From IMG/VR virus record IMGVR_UViG_3300048839_000152, positions 1-28,482 of that record: a stretch of 28,482 nucleotides of DNA; one strand, written 5' to 3'. The notes beneath the pieces were generated by a model. It had not been told where the DNA came from. It was given only the letters and a program-made list of their open reading frames with translations, and made no database searches. The position numbers were made by a program, and so were the translations under genes. Of the stretch, positions 4,743 through 25,916 are shown one piece after another (position 1 is the stretch's first letter; each line of letters begins with the position of its first letter). Source of the DNA: a virus.

Positions 4743-7337
4743 TCAATCTCCGATGAAATAGGTAATCTCCAGACACAAATAGTCATTGGTTGAAAATGCC
4801 GACTGTGGGCGAATGGTGCCATCGTTGGCGATGACAACTCGCACAGCGCCAGGCGTACCGTAACAGGTGAACTGCCGTGCATTCCCTGGTCGATACTCGC
4901 TGACGAGCGTGTAAATGCTGGTATTGCTGGAAATACTGCCCGATGCCTGCAAAACGCCTTTGATGCTGACCAGCGTTCCGAAGCGCTTGACGCCAAATGC
5001 CGTGTTGCCGCTGCCGTAGTTATTCCACCCGCCGCCCGGCGTCAGGGCGCTCCAGTCGTAACCGGTTGTGACAGCCAGGATGCGCCCGTTGACATCGAGC
5101 ATCGCAGCCGGACTCGTCGTGCCTATGCCAACCTTACCGTCATACGTCGCGGCCAGTGGAGTAGAGTACACAGCGTTATTGACCACATACTCCAAGCGAA
5201 ACATCGCGTCGGCAGAGTTATTAGACAACTCCCATCCGTAATTTGCCGAAGTCGACAATCGGAGTGGCACTTTTCCGCTACTCCTGTGAACCTGCAATGC
5301 AACCTGTGGATCAGACAGACCGATGCCTACGTTACCACCATCCAGGCAAATTGTAGGCGCTTTGATCGTCAACAGCCGACGCGTGACTGTGCCCGCATTA
5401 TTGGAAATTGTGTTGGCTGGCATTTCAATGACAGCATCCCAGGCATGAGTGTTGTGCGGGATGCTGCCCGTGTACCACTCAACATAGTGCTGCGACGACA
5501 CGTAAATGCGCAACCACTCCAGCCCAGGATAGCTGTAGTACAACGGCCCTGAGTAGATACTGTTGTATCCCCAATCAGTCGTACCCGGTTTGTCCCATAG
5601 CGAAATGCGCTGATTGATCGCTGGCAAAACTGGCGACGCACCAGGCTCTGTTGTCGGATATTCTATCGTGGTGCTTAGCTGCCGATAACCGTTGGCATTC
5701 AGCAACACATCGCCCGCACCCGCTACGAAATTGCCAGATGTGTCGCCATACCACTGCAGGGTGTTGTTGTTGTAGCCAGCAATGCGCCCGACACTGGAGT
5801 CTCGCCAGATGCGCAAGCCGGTGTAGTTGCTGCCAAGCGTACCGGTTCCCTGCCTTATTTCGCCCGACGTGCCGATGGTCATCACGCCGGCAAAATAGCT
5901 GTTGCCGGACGGATCGAGCACAATCATATCCGTCGTGTACTGCCGTAGGCGCACGCCATTCGTCGGATCGATGACAATGTTTGGCTGTCCGCTGGCATAC
6001 TTGCCCAGCCCGACGCCCATCATGTTGGAGCCGTAGCCGTACAGTCCATTCAGATTGCCGATGGCCCACGCTTCCGACCAATCATTATAGCGTGATGGAT
6101 CGCCCGAATTGCGTATATTTCCGACGATGGTCGGGCCGACTTGGCTCGCACTCTTTACGCCACGCACAGAGTAAAGATCGATCCACCCGCTGCCAGTGTC
6201 GCCTGTGTTGAAAATGGCGTCACCGGCGAACCACTCATTCGCCCCAGAGCCATCCAGATTGCGCGTTACGCCGTAACTGTACTCGGTTGCGCTAATCGTC
6301 ACCGGGCCGGATATGATGCGCAAGAACTCTACCTTGCCATCTGCTTCCAGATAGGTAATGTCGCCATACGACACGTCAACCACACCCACCTGCATTTGAT
6401 TGTGCCGCACATAAATCGTCGTGTCGCCTGTTGCCAAATCTCTCGTCAGCGTCGTGGTTGGTCCAACCAAAACACGCCCGCCAATGGTCGCACTGGTGTT
6501 TTGTGCTACCAACGTTTCGACCCACAACTCAGCGGCGTGCAGGGTCAAGTATTTTTTCGACAGCATGCCCAGATTGATGTCGTAATTTGTTGCGGGCAGT
6601 ACATCGTTCCCCACTGGATCGATGGTGATGTCTCCAGCAGGCTGGAGCGTCAGATTGCCCGCCGCCGTATCCAGTAGCGGCGAACGCAACCTGTCCGACG
6701 CAACCAGGCGCACCAGTGACAGATAGCCACTGGCGTCACTTGCCAGAATCGACGCCGCTGCCCCTGGATTGCTGCTGCTTGTGACTGCGTGCGTGTGACT
6801 GCCGCTGGCGCTGTTGGTTGAGGATACTGTCAGCGTGCCAGGTGTCGTCAGCGCAACATCATCAGCATTGACGGTGATACCGTTGCCTGCACCCACGGCA
6901 AACACGCCGGCACTGTGCGTCAATCCAGCACCAGCCAAGCCGCTTAGATTTTGCCAAGCTGCCGCCGTGCCGCTACCCGTACCGATGTACTGGTAATTAG
7001 CGCCCGTTGTGATCCCAACGGTGTCAGCGCCCACTGTAATCAGCGTGCCAGCACCGACGTTCAGCGTTAGGTCACTCGACAACGCACCGCCGCCTGTTAG
7101 CCCGCTGCCAGCCATGACGGTGCGAGTTGTGCGCACGACGGTCGAATCAACGGCAACAGCATCAGCCGCAACGCTGATGCCTGAGCCTGCGACAACATCC
7201 AACGTAGTACCTGTCAGCGTCAATCCGTCACCCGCTACCCAATCCACTGGCGTACCGGAACCAGTCACGCCGATGATGTTGGTTGAGCGATTGACTCGCC
7301 TACTGTCGATGATGCGTTGCGCTTGTCGTTTCGGCAT
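4743..7337 (-). CDS. Tail fibre / receptor-binding protein
   Basis: 864 residues, built as expected for a trimeric tail fibre. A short basic N-terminus likely attaches it to the tail tip. Residues 30-170 carry repeats of the G-x-G-[IL]-x-[IV]-x-A-D-x-[IV] type that form beta-rich shafts. A SHTHAV motif lies near 180 (His-x-His pairs can bind metal in some fibres). Long glycine/serine-rich beta regions follow. Two copies of the VGIG...SP...L.V motif (VGIGTTSPAAMLDVNG begins near 736) are typical of adhesins and fibres. The last 80 residues resemble phage fibre tip domains (G.LVSIKGVLQASGSI.. and VIANDGTIRP). It acts outside the cell in host recognition. The start follows the previous stop by 3 nt. 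Confidence 0.85.
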   Translation of the reverse strand: MPKRQAQRIIDSRRVNRSTNIIGVTGSGTPVDWVAGDGLTLTGTTLDVVAGSGISVAADAVAVDSTVVRTTRTVMAGSGLTGGGALSSDLTLNVGAGTLITVGADTVGITTGANYQYIGTGSGTAAAWQNLSGLAGAGLTHSAGVFAVGAGNGITVNADDVALTTPGTLTVSSTNSASGSHTHAVTSSSNPGAAASILASDASGYLSLVRLVASDRLRSPLLDTAAGNLTLQPAGDITIDPVGNDVLPATNYDINLGMLSKKYLTLHAAELWVETLVAQNTSATIGGRVLVGPTTTLTRDLATGDTTIYVRHNQMQVGVVDVSYGDITYLEADGKVEFLRIISGPVTISATEYSYGVTRNLDGSGANEWFAGDAIFNTGDTGSGWIDLYSVRGVKSASQVGPTIVGNIRNSGDPSRYNDWSEAWAIGNLNGLYGYGSNMMGVGLGKYASGQPNIVIDPTNGVRLRQYTTDMIVLDPSGNSYFAGVMTIGTSGEIRQGTGTLGSNYTGLRIWRDSSVGRIAGYNNNTLQWYGDTSGNFVAGAGDVLLNANGYRQLSTTIEYPTTEPGASPVLPAINQRISLWDKPGTTDWGYNSIYSGPLYYSYPGLEWLRIYVSSQHYVEWYTGSIPHNTHAWDAVIEMPANTISNNAGTVTRRLLTIKAPTICLDGGNVGIGLSDPQVALQVHRSSGKVPLRLSTSANYGWELSNNSADAMFRLEYVVNNAVYSTPLAATYDGKVGIGTTSPAAMLDVNGRILAVTTGYDWSALTPGGGWNNYGSGNTAFGVKRFGTLVSIKGVLQASGSISSNTSIYTLVSEYRPGNARQFTCYGTPGAVRVVIANDGTIRPQSAFSTNDYLCLEITYFIGD

Positions 7338-22711: not shown

Positions 22712-23914
22712 TCAGTATTCCTTTGCCCTTGCCCGTTTTCGTTGCGCAGCCGTCGCTCCGTGCCAACTCAGCGCCAGACTCATAACACAATCGTCGTGCA
22801 TAGAATCGGGCGCACTGTAGCGCACCATGCCGCTTTGCAATCGTTGCACTTCATACGCCTGCAACTCGGCTATTAACGTGGCGTCGTTCAGGATGCGGAT
22901 GTTGCCCTGCTCAAACGCCGCCGCGAGTGATTCGATGATGTCGGCTTTTGTGGCGTTCGTCGTGGTGAAGTCCCGCACGGGTAGACCCATCCTGCGCAGT
23001 TCGTCATTGTTCGGCTTGCCCATTGCGTTCGCTTCGGCAATCACGCCCGCCACGTTGAAGCGGTCGCACGCCGCCTTGATGCGCTGCCTCTGCATGGAGT
23101 AGTCCACGCCGTTGTAACGGTCGATGTAGACTAGCTCCCTTGTGTTGGCGTCGATGATGGTCAGCACGGTGAAGTCGTAGGACAATGCCCAGTCTAGCCC
23201 AGCCACGTAGGTCTTGTCACCACGCCTGCCCTCTGCCGGCGTTGCCGTTGCGCACTCGTTGATGCGCCGGAATAGCGAACCATCATCGACAAATTCGGCC
23301 ATCCATTCTTGGCGAAACGTGCGTTCAGGTACTTTGTCCTTGACTTTCTCAAACGCACGGCGAATCGTCGGCATGGGATTATCACTGGTTGGAGATGTCC
23401 AACTGCGCTGCTCCCTGTTTGCCGACTGCCCACGCACCCATTCAGTAAAAAACCAGTTCTTGCCCCGTGGCGTGCTAATCAGCACAGCGTCACCGTCATA
23501 GTCGGCAAGTGTCGGCATGATGGCATCTGTCCATGCGTCCTCGCCTATCTTCGCCGCTTCATCGATAACAACCAGGTTGAACGCCTCGCCACGGATTGAA
23601 TCGATGTTGTCGCCAGAGTACAGCCCGACAAACCCGCCTCGCCGTGTCTCTATGGTGCGCTCTGCCTTGTGAATGACGACCCGCTTATGCTTGGCGTCAT
23701 CGGCTACCGCCATCTGCAACCAACGCCACATGGGGCGAGTGTTCTTATACGTAGGTGCAACCCACGCCACCCGCCCATGCTGTTGTAATGTCAAGCCGAC
23801 AAGCACGCCACCTAGCACGGTTTTACCCCAACGTCTCCCCATCGATAGCACTTTGACCTTTGCTGGGTCACTCGCTATCTTCATCTGATCCCGGCGCAAC
23901 CGTGGTAAGTCCAT
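22712..23914 (-). CDS. terL: Terminase large subunit
   Basis: 400 residues. The N-terminal ATPase has Walker A GRRWGKT (26-32), Walker B VVIDEA (115-120) and the coupling motif STPRG (147-151). The C-terminal RNase H-like nuclease has its first aspartate in AGLDWALSYD (Asp241), an acidic AEANAMG (near 294) and HDD (374-376). It cuts the concatemer and drives DNA into the capsid. The start overlaps the small subunit gene by 47 nt. The length is a little below the usual 420-600 residues, but all motifs are present. Confidence 0.92.
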   Translation of the reverse strand: MDLPRLRRDQMKIASDPAKVKVLSMGRRWGKTVLGGVLVGLTLQQHGRVAWVAPTYKNTRPMWRWLQMAVADDAKHKRVVIHKAERTIETRRGGFVGLYSGDNIDSIRGEAFNLVVIDEAAKIGEDAWTDAIMPTLADYDGDAVLISTPRGKNWFFTEWVRGQSANREQRSWTSPTSDNPMPTIRRAFEKVKDKVPERTFRQEWMAEFVDDGSLFRRINECATATPAEGRRGDKTYVAGLDWALSYDFTVLTIIDANTRELVYIDRYNGVDYSMQRQRIKAACDRFNVAGVIAEANAMGKPNNDELRRMGLPVRDFTTTNATKADIIESLAAAFEQGNIRILNDATLIAELQAYEVQRLQSGMVRYSAPDSMHDDCVMSLALSWHGATAAQRKRARAKEY

Positions 23915-24263
23915 GTCTATAGTCCACTACTCGAATCGGAATATCATCGCCGTTTGGCCCACTGATTTCCGTCCTCTGCTCATATCGTTCGATGTATCCA
24001 CGATGCTTTGCTTGCGTCTTCAGGAAGAAAATAATCGCCGTGTTGTCGCCGCTGTTGATGTTCTGGTACAGCCTGCCCTCGGCAATGTCAATCATCGATT
24101 CCCGTGCATCCGTGACGGCTTGCTTGCACATGGCGTAGCGTTCCATGTAGTTGCGCACAGTCTGGTCAGAACACTGTAGATTCTTGGCAGCGACTGACAC
24201 GAACCCCTTAGCGGCAGTCAGTGCGGCCGCTACCTGTTGTGCTGTGTACCTGTCTGTTGCCAT
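23868..24263 (-). CDS. terS: Terminase small subunit
   Basis: 131 residues. The N-terminal helix-turn-helix (GFVSVAAKNLQCSDQTVRNY) recognises the packaging site. A central helical oligomerisation region and a C-terminal tail follow, overlapping the large subunit gene. It is the first gene read from the leftward promoter at 24336-24308, with a leader of about 38 nt. There is no strong Shine-Dalgarno sequence; TTTGGGATAA lies 7 nt before the ATG. Confidence 0.85.
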   Translation of the reverse strand: MATDRYTAQQVAAALTAAKGFVSVAAKNLQCSDQTVRNYMERYAMCKQAVTDARESMIDIAEGRLYQNINSGDNTAIIFFLKTQAKHRGYIERYEQRTEISGPNGDDIPIRVVDYRHGLTTVAPGSDEDSE

Positions 24264-24271
24264 GTTTTTAT

Positions 24272-24289
24272 TATCCCAAATATCCCAAA
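24272..24289. repeat. Tandem 9-bp repeat before the small terminase gene
   Basis: TATCCCAAA occurs twice in tandem (24272-24280, 24281-24289). Read on the minus strand one copy sits immediately before the small terminase start. Another copy lies at 26701-26709, likewise just upstream of the small gene starting at 26690. Confidence 0.6.
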
Positions 24290-24293
24290 TAGC

Positions 24294-24322
24294 TTGACAT
24301 ACTTGATTTTATATGATAAAAT
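24294..24322 (+). promoter_or_regulatory. Rightward promoter of the embedded operon
   Basis: TTGACA (24294-24299), 17 nt, TAAAAT (24317-24322). Transcription would start at about 24329-24330, that is at the A of the ATG of the ribbon-helix-helix gene, implying a leaderless message. Confidence 0.8.
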
Positions 24323-24336
24323 CAAGTACATGTCAA
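24308..24336 (-). promoter_or_regulatory. Leftward late promoter before terminase
   Basis: On the minus strand TTGACA (24336-24331), 17 nt, TATAAA (24313-24308). Transcription would start near 24301 and run into the terminase and head genes. It overlaps the rightward promoter on the other strand. Confidence 0.75.
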
Positions 24337-24536
24337 GACATGGAGGGAATCGCCCAGGTTCGGGGCGAAAATCCCTGTCATCTGAACCAACAGCAGTATT
24401 GAGCGTGACAATACTACGTTCGCAGCACGAATGGCTATCACGTCGGACTGTCAACATATCTCAATTTATCCGTTCTCTAGTGCAAAAGGAAATCGACAAT
24501 GACAATCAAGAGACGCAGTTACACGATCAATCCTGA
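24330..24536 (+). CDS. Ribbon-helix-helix repressor candidate
   Basis: 68 residues. The ATG at 24330 is chosen because it coincides with the predicted transcription start; upstream in-frame codons fall in the promoter. The flexible N-terminus GGNRPGSGRKS is common in small phage DNA-binding proteins. TAVLSVTILRSQHEWLSRRT then VNISQFIRSLVQKEID follows the ribbon-helix-helix plan: one beta strand, helix, turn, helix. Its own promoter and the opposing late promoter both sit in a palindrome with four half-sites, so it is likely an autorepressor. The end overlaps the radical SAM gene by 38 nt. Confidence 0.75.
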   Translation: MSRHGGNRPGSGRKSLSSEPTAVLSVTILRSQHEWLSRRTVNISQFIRSLVQKEIDNDNQETQLHDQS

Positions 24537-25320
24537 CGGTTGGAGTGTCGCCGGATGCTCCTACATCTATGCCCCTCGTGGGCAAGCTGGCGAGTATGCC
24601 AAGCTCGCCGCCAACCCGTACCGAGGATGTGGACACGCCTGCGCTTACTGCTACGTGCCAAAGGTGCTGAAGATTGACCGTCCGACGTTTGACGCCTCGG
24701 CATCTCCCCGCCCCGGCTTTATTGACTCCTTGCGCAAAGATGCCGCCAAGTATCAGGCGTGCGGCATCACGGAACAGGTCATGCTGAGTTTCACGACTGA
24801 CCCTTTCAACCCGTTTGACGTGTCGCTGACTCGCCCGACGATTGAAACTTTGATCAATCATGGTTTGGCATTCTGCACGCTCACCAAAGGCGGAAGCCGT
24901 GCGATCCCATTTCTTGACCTTTTCCGCCCTGAGCGTGACGCATTCGCCAGCACTCTCACTAGCATGGACGATGCATTTAGTCGCAAGTGGGAGCGTGGCG
25001 CTCAATTGCCCGGAGACAGAATCGCCACGCTGCGAGCCTTCCACGCCGCCGGCATCTTCACATGGGTGTCTCTGGAGCCAACACTTGACACCGCCAGCAG
25101 CATCTCCATCATCGAAGCTACGCATGAGTTTGTTGATCTGTACAAGATCGGGCGGGCTAACTACCTGCCGATGACATACACCACAGACTGGCAGGATTAC
25201 ACCATGCGAATTTTGGATGTCGTCAATCGTCTTGGTGTCAAGCACTACATTAAGCATGACTTGCAACCCTATCTGCCAACCGGCTATCACAACCCAAAGT
25301 ACATCTCCCAGCACAACTAG
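24499..25320 (+). CDS. Radical SAM protein, spore photoproduct lyase-like
   Basis: 273 residues. The CX3CX2C motif (Cys44, Cys48, Cys51 in YRGCGHACAYCYV) binds the [4Fe-4S] cluster that cleaves S-adenosylmethionine. The downstream TTDPFNP (98-104), FCTLTKG and WVSLEPT motifs place it in the SplB-like family (COG1533). That family includes DNA repair lyases but also many uncharacterised members. The start has AAGGA upstream and lies inside the repressor gene. It is the only enzyme gene on this strand in the late region. Substrate unknown: a nucleobase in phage DNA or repair of a lesion are the natural guesses. Confidence 0.85.
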   Translation: MTIKRRSYTINPDGWSVAGCSYIYAPRGQAGEYAKLAANPYRGCGHACAYCYVPKVLKIDRPTFDASASPRPGFIDSLRKDAAKYQACGITEQVMLSFTTDPFNPFDVSLTRPTIETLINHGLAFCTLTKGGSRAIPFLDLFRPERDAFASTLTSMDDAFSRKWERGAQLPGDRIATLRAFHAAGIFTWVSLEPTLDTASSISIIEATHEFVDLYKIGRANYLPMTYTTDWQDYTMRILDVVNRLGVKHYIKHDLQPYLPTGYHNPKYISQHN

Positions 25321-25916
25321 AGCCTAAGCACTGCGGCATAGTGCGTCATTTGGTCGTCATGTCCGCAGTAATATCCAGCCCAGCGGGTAAGCGTATAGCC
25401 ACGTTTACCCGCTTTTTGTTCGACAAGCTCCCTGCATATCTCCAGGTATCGCCTGTAAATGCTACTCGCCCCATACCGTGTCGCGATTTCCGACAACGCT
25501 TGCACGTCCCATCCGCCAGTCATTTTGAGTTTTTGCCGCAAGCCATCATTTACCGCAATCGCCAACACGGGCAGAAACTCTCGCTTCGACTCAAAAAATG
25601 CATCAATCGTAGACCACGGTTCGCCATATGGATCGAAGTCCACAAAGTTTACCGGCAGGTGTGCGCCTGCCCCACTACGCAAGGCGTTGACGCAATCGCA
25701 CTCGTACACAGCCCATGTCGGGCGCTGCATGGCTAACGCCTCAGCCTTCTGAGGTTCTTTTTCCATGACAACGCCATCCCGAATGGCATAGTAGCACTTC
25801 GACCAAATGCCACCATATCCTCCATGTGTCTCCATGACGATGGGATTGTCGATTTCCTGCAACAGCTTTCGCCTAAGCGATGCCTTCAAGGGTAGAGTAA
25901 AGTTGTCCTTTTTCAT
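25317..25916 (-). CDS. Methyltransferase-like protein
   Basis: 199 residues, overlapping the ParB-like gene upstream by 44 nt. It follows a class I methyltransferase plan in unpermuted order. A motif I-like PIVMETHGGYGGIW (about 25-40) comes first, with an acidic turn VVMEKEP. DC.NAL comes next, then the catalytic-type VNFVDFDPYGEPW (DPYG; reminiscent of the DPPY and Trm1 DPFG motifs). The target could be DNA or RNA. The ATG at 25916 or one before ETHGG may be used. Its TAG stop shares CTAG with the stop of the convergent radical SAM gene. Confidence 0.6.
   Translation of the reverse strand: MKKDNFTLPLKASLRRKLLQEIDNPIVMETHGGYGGIWSKCYYAIRDGVVMEKEPQKAEALAMQRPTWAVYECDCVNALRSGAGAHLPVNFVDFDPYGEPWSTIDAFFESKREFLPVLAIAVNDGLRQKLKMTGGWDVQALSEIATRYGASSIYRRYLEICRELVEQKAGKRGYTLTRWAGYYCGHDDQMTHYAAVLRL

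Follow-up and report, generated by a model that had tools for sequence, protein, structure and literature searches.

The stretch of DNA analysed here, an IMG/VR record of an uncultivated phage that is 28,482 nt long and referred to below as the window, contains a long palindrome at positions 24293–24337. It lies between two divergently oriented groups of genes: the terminase genes, beginning with that of the small subunit (terS), on the minus strand, and the genes of a small regulator of the ribbon-helix-helix (RHH) type and a radical SAM (rSAM) enzyme on the plus strand. An earlier, sequence-only reading interpreted the element as a two-way switch, in which face-to-face promoters inside the palindrome exclude one another and the RHH protein is the ligand. 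Here we ask which direction of transcription the element serves and which protein is likely to bind it.

Facing promoter-like sites within a palindrome

The element reads CTTGACAT-ACTTGATTTTAT-ATG-ATAAAATCAAGT-AC-ATGTCAAG and is a predicted operator composed of four half-sites. The inner arms (TACTTGATTTTAT at 24300–24312 and ATAAAATCAAGTA at 24316–24328) are 13 bp long and pair perfectly around a 3-bp centre; the outer arms (CTTGACAT and ATGTCAAG) add seven paired bases, with the right side offset by 2 bp. The palindrome is real and far above chance: it has 20 paired bases, compared to 14 for the best among 60 dinucleotide-shuffled versions of the whole window. It lies exactly where the sequence-only reading had placed it. 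No second copy of the element was found in the 28,482 nt of the window.

Both pairs of promoter boxes named in that reading are present as well. The rightward promoter (24294–24322, plus strand) consists of TTGACA at 24294–24299, a 17-bp spacer and TAAAAT at 24317–24322 with the TG of an extended −10 box, and its predicted start is at about 24329. Scored with a generic σ70 matrix (E. coli frequencies, and hence a guide only for a phage whose host may be another bacterium), it reaches 15.8 and ranks second among all sites on both strands of the whole window. The leftward promoter-like site (24308–24336, minus strand) consists of TTGACA at 24336–24331, a 17-bp spacer and TATAAA at 24313–24308. 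It is weaker, scoring 12.7 with the same E. coli-based matrix, which makes it the top site of the minus strand and the fourth in the window. Its −10 box has neither the T at position 6 nor the TG, and therefore the site is missing from a consensus promoter scan.

A promoter within a near-perfect palindrome necessarily has a mirror image, so that the two facing promoters are not two independent observations. The exact mirror of the rightward promoter, TTGACA-19-TAAAAT, scores 12.3, and TTGACA-17-TATAAA is found two bases over. Since the exact mirror already scores that high, the leftward site is largely a by-product of the palindrome symmetry. Only relatives can tell which of the two promoters is maintained by selection.

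A perfect 13-bp stem would also fold in read-through RNA, and we therefore considered the palindrome as an RNA hairpin or a bidirectional terminator acting in the transcript. The stem is A+T-rich, and the start codon of the RHH gene is at its edge. Moreover, both predicted starts lie past the inner arms, and hence the hairpin would be present in neither promoter's own transcript. We rejected this explanation, to which we assign almost no credence.

The regulator and the radical SAM gene form a putative inverted cassette

The rightward −10 box is separated by 7 bp from the ATG of the RHH gene (68 codons, 24330–24536, plus strand), and thus the mRNA of this gene is probably leaderless. The distance from the beginning of the −10 box to the start codon equals 12–13 nt in the window and in the relatives L005, L134 and L051; the same spacing was described for leaderless bacterial genes (PMC3160421).

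The 68-residue protein has no significant match in Pfam, NCBIfam or PHROGs, its Pfam matches being at the chance level. Its profile matches PDB entry 2kke weakly (E 0.07), and its relative from L051 matches the MazE and BrnA models with E 0.0035 and 0.035, respectively, both far under the cut-off. In the structure model of the monomer, an extended segment is followed by helices at 30–39 and 43–64 (pLDDT about 80–87); a Foldseek search with this model yielded nothing at E 10. The family pattern of the relatives, the weak MazE/BrnA and 2kke matches and the two-helix model together suggest the RHH assignment. The relatives are 38–84% identical to the window protein; among the matches listed in the search with the RHH alignment, L134 was the main addition.

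The second gene (24499–25320, plus strand) overlaps the RHH gene with its start and encodes a radical SAM enzyme of 273 aa, which scores 32.6 bits against Pfam PF04055 (cut-off 29.5). The cysteines of its CxxxCxxC cluster motif (C44, C48 and C51) are invariant across the rSAM alignment. The protein does not fall into the PA0069, Rv2578c or mobile pair B subfamilies, where it scores 36–41 bits against curated cut-offs of 360–430. Type II toxin–antitoxin modules have a known toxin fold in the second gene, the place taken here by the radical SAM enzyme. A terminator-like hairpin on the plus strand (25382–25413) is located 62 bp past the rSAM stop codon. Terminator-like hairpins of the same orientation are found 57 bp (L051) and 65 bp (L219) past the rSAM stop, inside a convergent gene of about 200 residues; no such hairpin was found in L005, nor in the rightward orientation in L134. 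The convergent gene is conserved and regularly adjoins the rSAM gene (25317–25916, minus strand, in the window; 5800–6420 in L051; 4813–5415 in L219), and it has a very weak likeness to the tRNA dimethyltransferase Trm1 (E 0.05).

The RHH and rSAM genes run opposite to the genes that flank them. On one side, the minus strand carries terS (23868–24263; phrog_309, E 4e-8), terL and the genes of an SPP1-like portal and of Mu F-like and major head proteins; on the other side, also on the minus strand, are genes of a ParB-like protein and a DNA methyltransferase. The same layout (the convergent gene, rSAM–RHH, divergent terS, terL) recurs in L005, L051, L134 and L219 with differing terminases. L015, L004, L027 and L028 have relatives of terS and terL and no cassette beside terS, and in cassette-free relatives terS is mostly preceded by a codirectional gene-sized reading frame (e.g. 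L004, L015, L027, L028, L031). Given the opposite orientation and this codirectional gene, the RHH/rSAM pair looks as if it were a transcription unit inserted in inverted orientation. By its sequence features it looks like a self-contained cassette beside terS, made up of a promoter/operator, a leaderless regulator, an enzyme and a terminator. A literature search found no description of an RHH/rSAM cassette. In L048 (1838–2160), whose cassette region is near-identical to that of the window, a mosaic boundary cuts through terS: the leader and the initial part of the gene are near-identical to the window, and the remainder diverges.

The leader of terS contains two tandem copies of TTGGGATA (24271–24288, minus strand). 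One of them, TTGGGATAAT, ends 6 nt before the terS ATG and is situated outside the palindrome; related TTGGGATA copies are found upstream of terS in cassette-free L015 (80–312). These repeats are possibly an alternative terS promoter or a binding site of TerS. The position of the palindrome beside terS, adjoining these direct repeats, might indicate that the palindrome itself serves in packaging (pac/cos) or in recognition by TerS. However, the operator core described below accompanies the RHH gene even where the TerS proteins are dissimilar (L134, L219, L051), and L015, with a TerS 71% identical to that of the window, has no such palindrome. We rejected the packaging site on these grounds and consider it highly improbable.

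Operator sequences among relatives

The conserved part of the palindrome is the core CTTGA-N15-TCAAG (24302–24326), which encloses the −10 box and recurs in six further independent RHH–rSAM cassettes. We compared 112 distinct regions upstream of rSAM relatives, 10 with an RHH gene and 102 without it. The core in the form YTTGA-N15-TCAAR was present in 8 of the 10 RHH-positive regions versus 3 of the 102 RHH-negative ones (Fisher p 1.5e-8, or 1.2e-7 when the near-identical L048 is omitted), about 3 occurrences being expected by chance in all 112 regions. This enrichment implies that the operator tracks the RHH protein rather than the terminase. The cassettes thus possess a symmetric operator at their own promoter, as is typical of RHH repressors. 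The core ends a few bases 5' of the RHH start codon.

The 25-bp core sequences are CTTGATTTTATATGATAAAATCAAG in the window, CTTGATTGCGTGTGATATAATCAAG in L005, CCTGATAGAATGTGATACAATCAGG in L134, CTTGAATGTGTGTGATAGAATCAAA in L050, ATTGAAAACGTATGCTACAATCAAA in L051, ATTGATTGAGTATGATAATATCAAA in L054 and TTTGATTTGGTGTTATACAATCAAT in L219, with the consensus [CA]TTGATTNNGTRTGATANAATCAAR. These seven sequences were chosen by the same symmetric pattern, and hence their perfect pairing (28 of 28) is built in; the fair control for core symmetry is the RHH-negative set. L134 has matching changes in both arms (CCTGAT/ATCAGG). L005 has perfect 17-bp arms with a different outer sequence, altered on both sides (TTTGTCAC/GTGACAAA). 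The outer arms are retained in the window, L048 and L005 only, and there the right one falls in the first RHH codons. In L050 and L054 the site is located further upstream, and one or two additional small reading frames separate it from the RHH gene. One of these frames, at about 4670–4810 in L050 and also present in L054, is cysteine-rich (CAGCCDCG/CAGCCECG).

Taken together, the co-occurrence with the RHH gene and the changes in both arms of L134 make it likely that the ligand is the RHH protein, as the sequence-only reading had proposed, and its suggestion that the palindrome controls the regulator/rSAM operon is likewise supported by the comparison.

There are two exceptions. L218 has an RHH relative and no operator, and its neighbouring genes are codirectional. 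In L049 the left half-site has decayed to CTCGG and the outer right arm is lost, although the RHH protein is 76% identical to that of the window and the predicted DNA-contact strand, LSVTILR, is identical; this is the main evidence contrary to the operator model. We considered whether the left arm of L049 had gained 9 nt by insertion and rejected this, given that the alignment is gap-free and substitutions suffice.

The retention of the RHH gene in L049, where the palindrome is incomplete, would be in line with binding by a host repressor instead of the RHH protein; the palindrome would then silence the cassette in unsuitable hosts or growth states. Against this stands the association of the site with the RHH gene within the rSAM cassettes, as does the fact that cassettes with other regulators bear other palindromes, and we consider a host repressor very unlikely. 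In the L058 cassette (about 840–945), which has an unrelated small regulator, AAAACTCGCGAGTTT occurs twice around TATACT, with AAACTCGCGAGTTT present twice over the promoter. The L052 group (about 4765–4810) has CTGTAGACAAGGG-CGCT-CCCTTGT...TATCTACAG, in which CTGTAGACAAGGG/CCCTTGT/TCTACAG are nested, again with an unrelated small regulator. Since other rSAM cassettes combine other regulators with other promoter palindromes, we infer that self-regulation with interchangeable regulators may be general to these cassettes.

Several further palindromes were observed. Two promoter modules of the window, TTGACAACCAAACGGTTTGGATGTATACT and TTGACAATCAAACGGTTTGGGTGTATAAT (755–880 and 1450–1570), are near-repeats of one another, and each lies before a small plus-strand frame. 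These modules, at 778 and 1477, have a different palindrome, CAAACGGTTTG, in the spacer, which places them outside the RHH regulon; they are probably operators of a different regulator. Three sites of the CTTGATT-ATTATAC-AATCAAG type, centred near the −10-like TATAC, are found in one 109-kb virus (L161 at 1078 and 1412, L175 at 481), and their regulator is apparently unrelated. A scan of IMG/VR with the pattern CTTGATTN{8,14}AATCAAGN{1,6}TGWCAA returned 55 stretches, and a match on both strands went together with an RHH gene behind it in just two of them, L048 and L178 (the L005 contig). The remaining stretches appear to be chance matches or operators of unrelated regulators.

Direction of control and comparison with known systems

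The two promoters behave differently in relatives. Plus-strand scores in seven relatives range from 10.2 to 15.3, with the −10 box in the same register inside the core, whereas the best minus-strand scores near the core are 7.2 (L005), 5.8 (L134), 8.7 (L051), 6.6 (L050), 6.6 (L054), 5.5 (L219) and 6.6 (L049). None of these minus-strand values leaves the range of shuffled sequences (means 5.1–7.1, 95% values 8.4–10.2). The leftward promoter was kept in none of the compared relatives but the near-identical L048, where the palindrome is identical to that of the window. Leftward transcription from the palindrome is possible in the window phage and L048. Of the sequence-only reading, the RHH ligand and the control of the RHH/rSAM operon are thus supported, and a leftward promoter for the terminase genes, conserved as one side of a switch, is not.

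A two-way switch would require both promoters to be active and mutually exclusive, with the RHH protein deciding whether the virion genes, from terS onward, or those of the accessory operon are expressed. The leftward site being the best σ70-like site of the minus strand agrees with this, as do the 38 bp between its predicted start and the terS start and the divergent terS/RHH order retained in several phages. Nevertheless, that site is a symmetry by-product with an incomplete −10 box and is at the background level in all seven compared relatives; terS in cassette-free relatives mostly follows a codirectional gene; and one bound operator would silence both promoters rather than toggle them. 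At symmetric promoters, mutual exclusion of polymerases is known, but in five of five E. coli examples tested polymerases transcribed too little at the basal level to compete (PMC12825309), and thus a switch that relied on such exclusion alone would be weakly founded. Such a switch is, in our estimation, unlikely.

We consider it quite probable that the element is the promoter–operator of an autonomous inverted RHH/rSAM cassette under negative autoregulation by the RHH protein. The palindrome, promoter match, conserved spacing, RHH co-occurrence, terminator and synteny are computed results, whereas we infer the binding, the sign of regulation and the start site. RNA polymerase would start rightward at about 24329 and produce an mRNA that has no leader and opens with the start codon of the RHH gene. 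RHH dimers would bind the inner half-sites CTTGAT/ATCAAG straddling the extended −10 box and, in the window phage, probably also the outer half-sites, the left of which is the −35 box itself. Binding would block the protein's own promoter, and expression of the rSAM gene would stay low and self-limited as long as the repressor is neither diluted nor titrated. Any leftward transcript that begins within the palindrome would come under the same repression; the repression of terS is possibly a side effect, unless both starts are real.

Control of this kind is already known, and the operator family is new and conserved. As in autoregulated RHH operons of the Arc/CopG/MazE/ParD type, a small RHH-type protein comes first in the operon and a symmetric operator covers its own promoter. 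In M. tuberculosis, MazE6 has an 18-bp operator in an autoregulated RHH operon (PMC9477884). Unlike in those operons, the partner is an rSAM enzyme rather than a known toxin, partition or metal-transport gene, the start codon is located at the edge of the operator core, as in a leaderless gene, and no family model recognises the regulator.

The element also resembles the bidirectional promoters of E. coli (Warman et al. 2026, PMC12825309), being a pseudo-symmetric promoter between divergent genes at which polymerase engagement in either orientation is conceivable. However, those promoters share −10 elements, and the commonest distances between their starts are 10, 18 and 23 bp, whereas the −10 boxes of the window (24317–24322 and 24308–24313) are separate, 3 bp apart, with predicted starts 28 bp apart, and the leftward promoter is not conserved. 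Like phage morons, which are inserted cassettes with independent transcription, the cassette has its own promoter and terminator, as far as consensus matches indicate, is inverted within a minus-strand block and is absent from some relatives; unlike them, it appears to be regulated by its own first gene and sits at a single fixed position next to terS in several phages whose terminases are dissimilar.

The biotin operator of E. coli is a long palindrome over two overlapping divergent promoters and is bound by a dimer of the repressor BirA, a co-repressor-controlled winged-helix protein; both of its transcripts are established. The window element shares the long palindrome across overlapping divergent promoters, but just one direction of transcription is well supported. 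A bolder version of the model holds that, in a phage family, self-regulated RHH/rSAM cassettes lie beside the terminase genes, with a single element serving as promoter, operator and translation start, and that in the window lineage this element has become fully symmetric, which lets the repressor time the expression of the terminase as well. We regard it as a doubtful extension.

A palindromic operator can yield a convincing promoter on the opposite strand without comparative support, which is a general trap in sequence-based reading of promoters. For the phages themselves, a widespread and unannotated type of rSAM gene gains a regulatory context comprising a candidate regulator, a 25-bp site, a probable leaderless start and a terminator. 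The target of the regulator is now directly testable, and the consensus may be used for finding more such cassettes.
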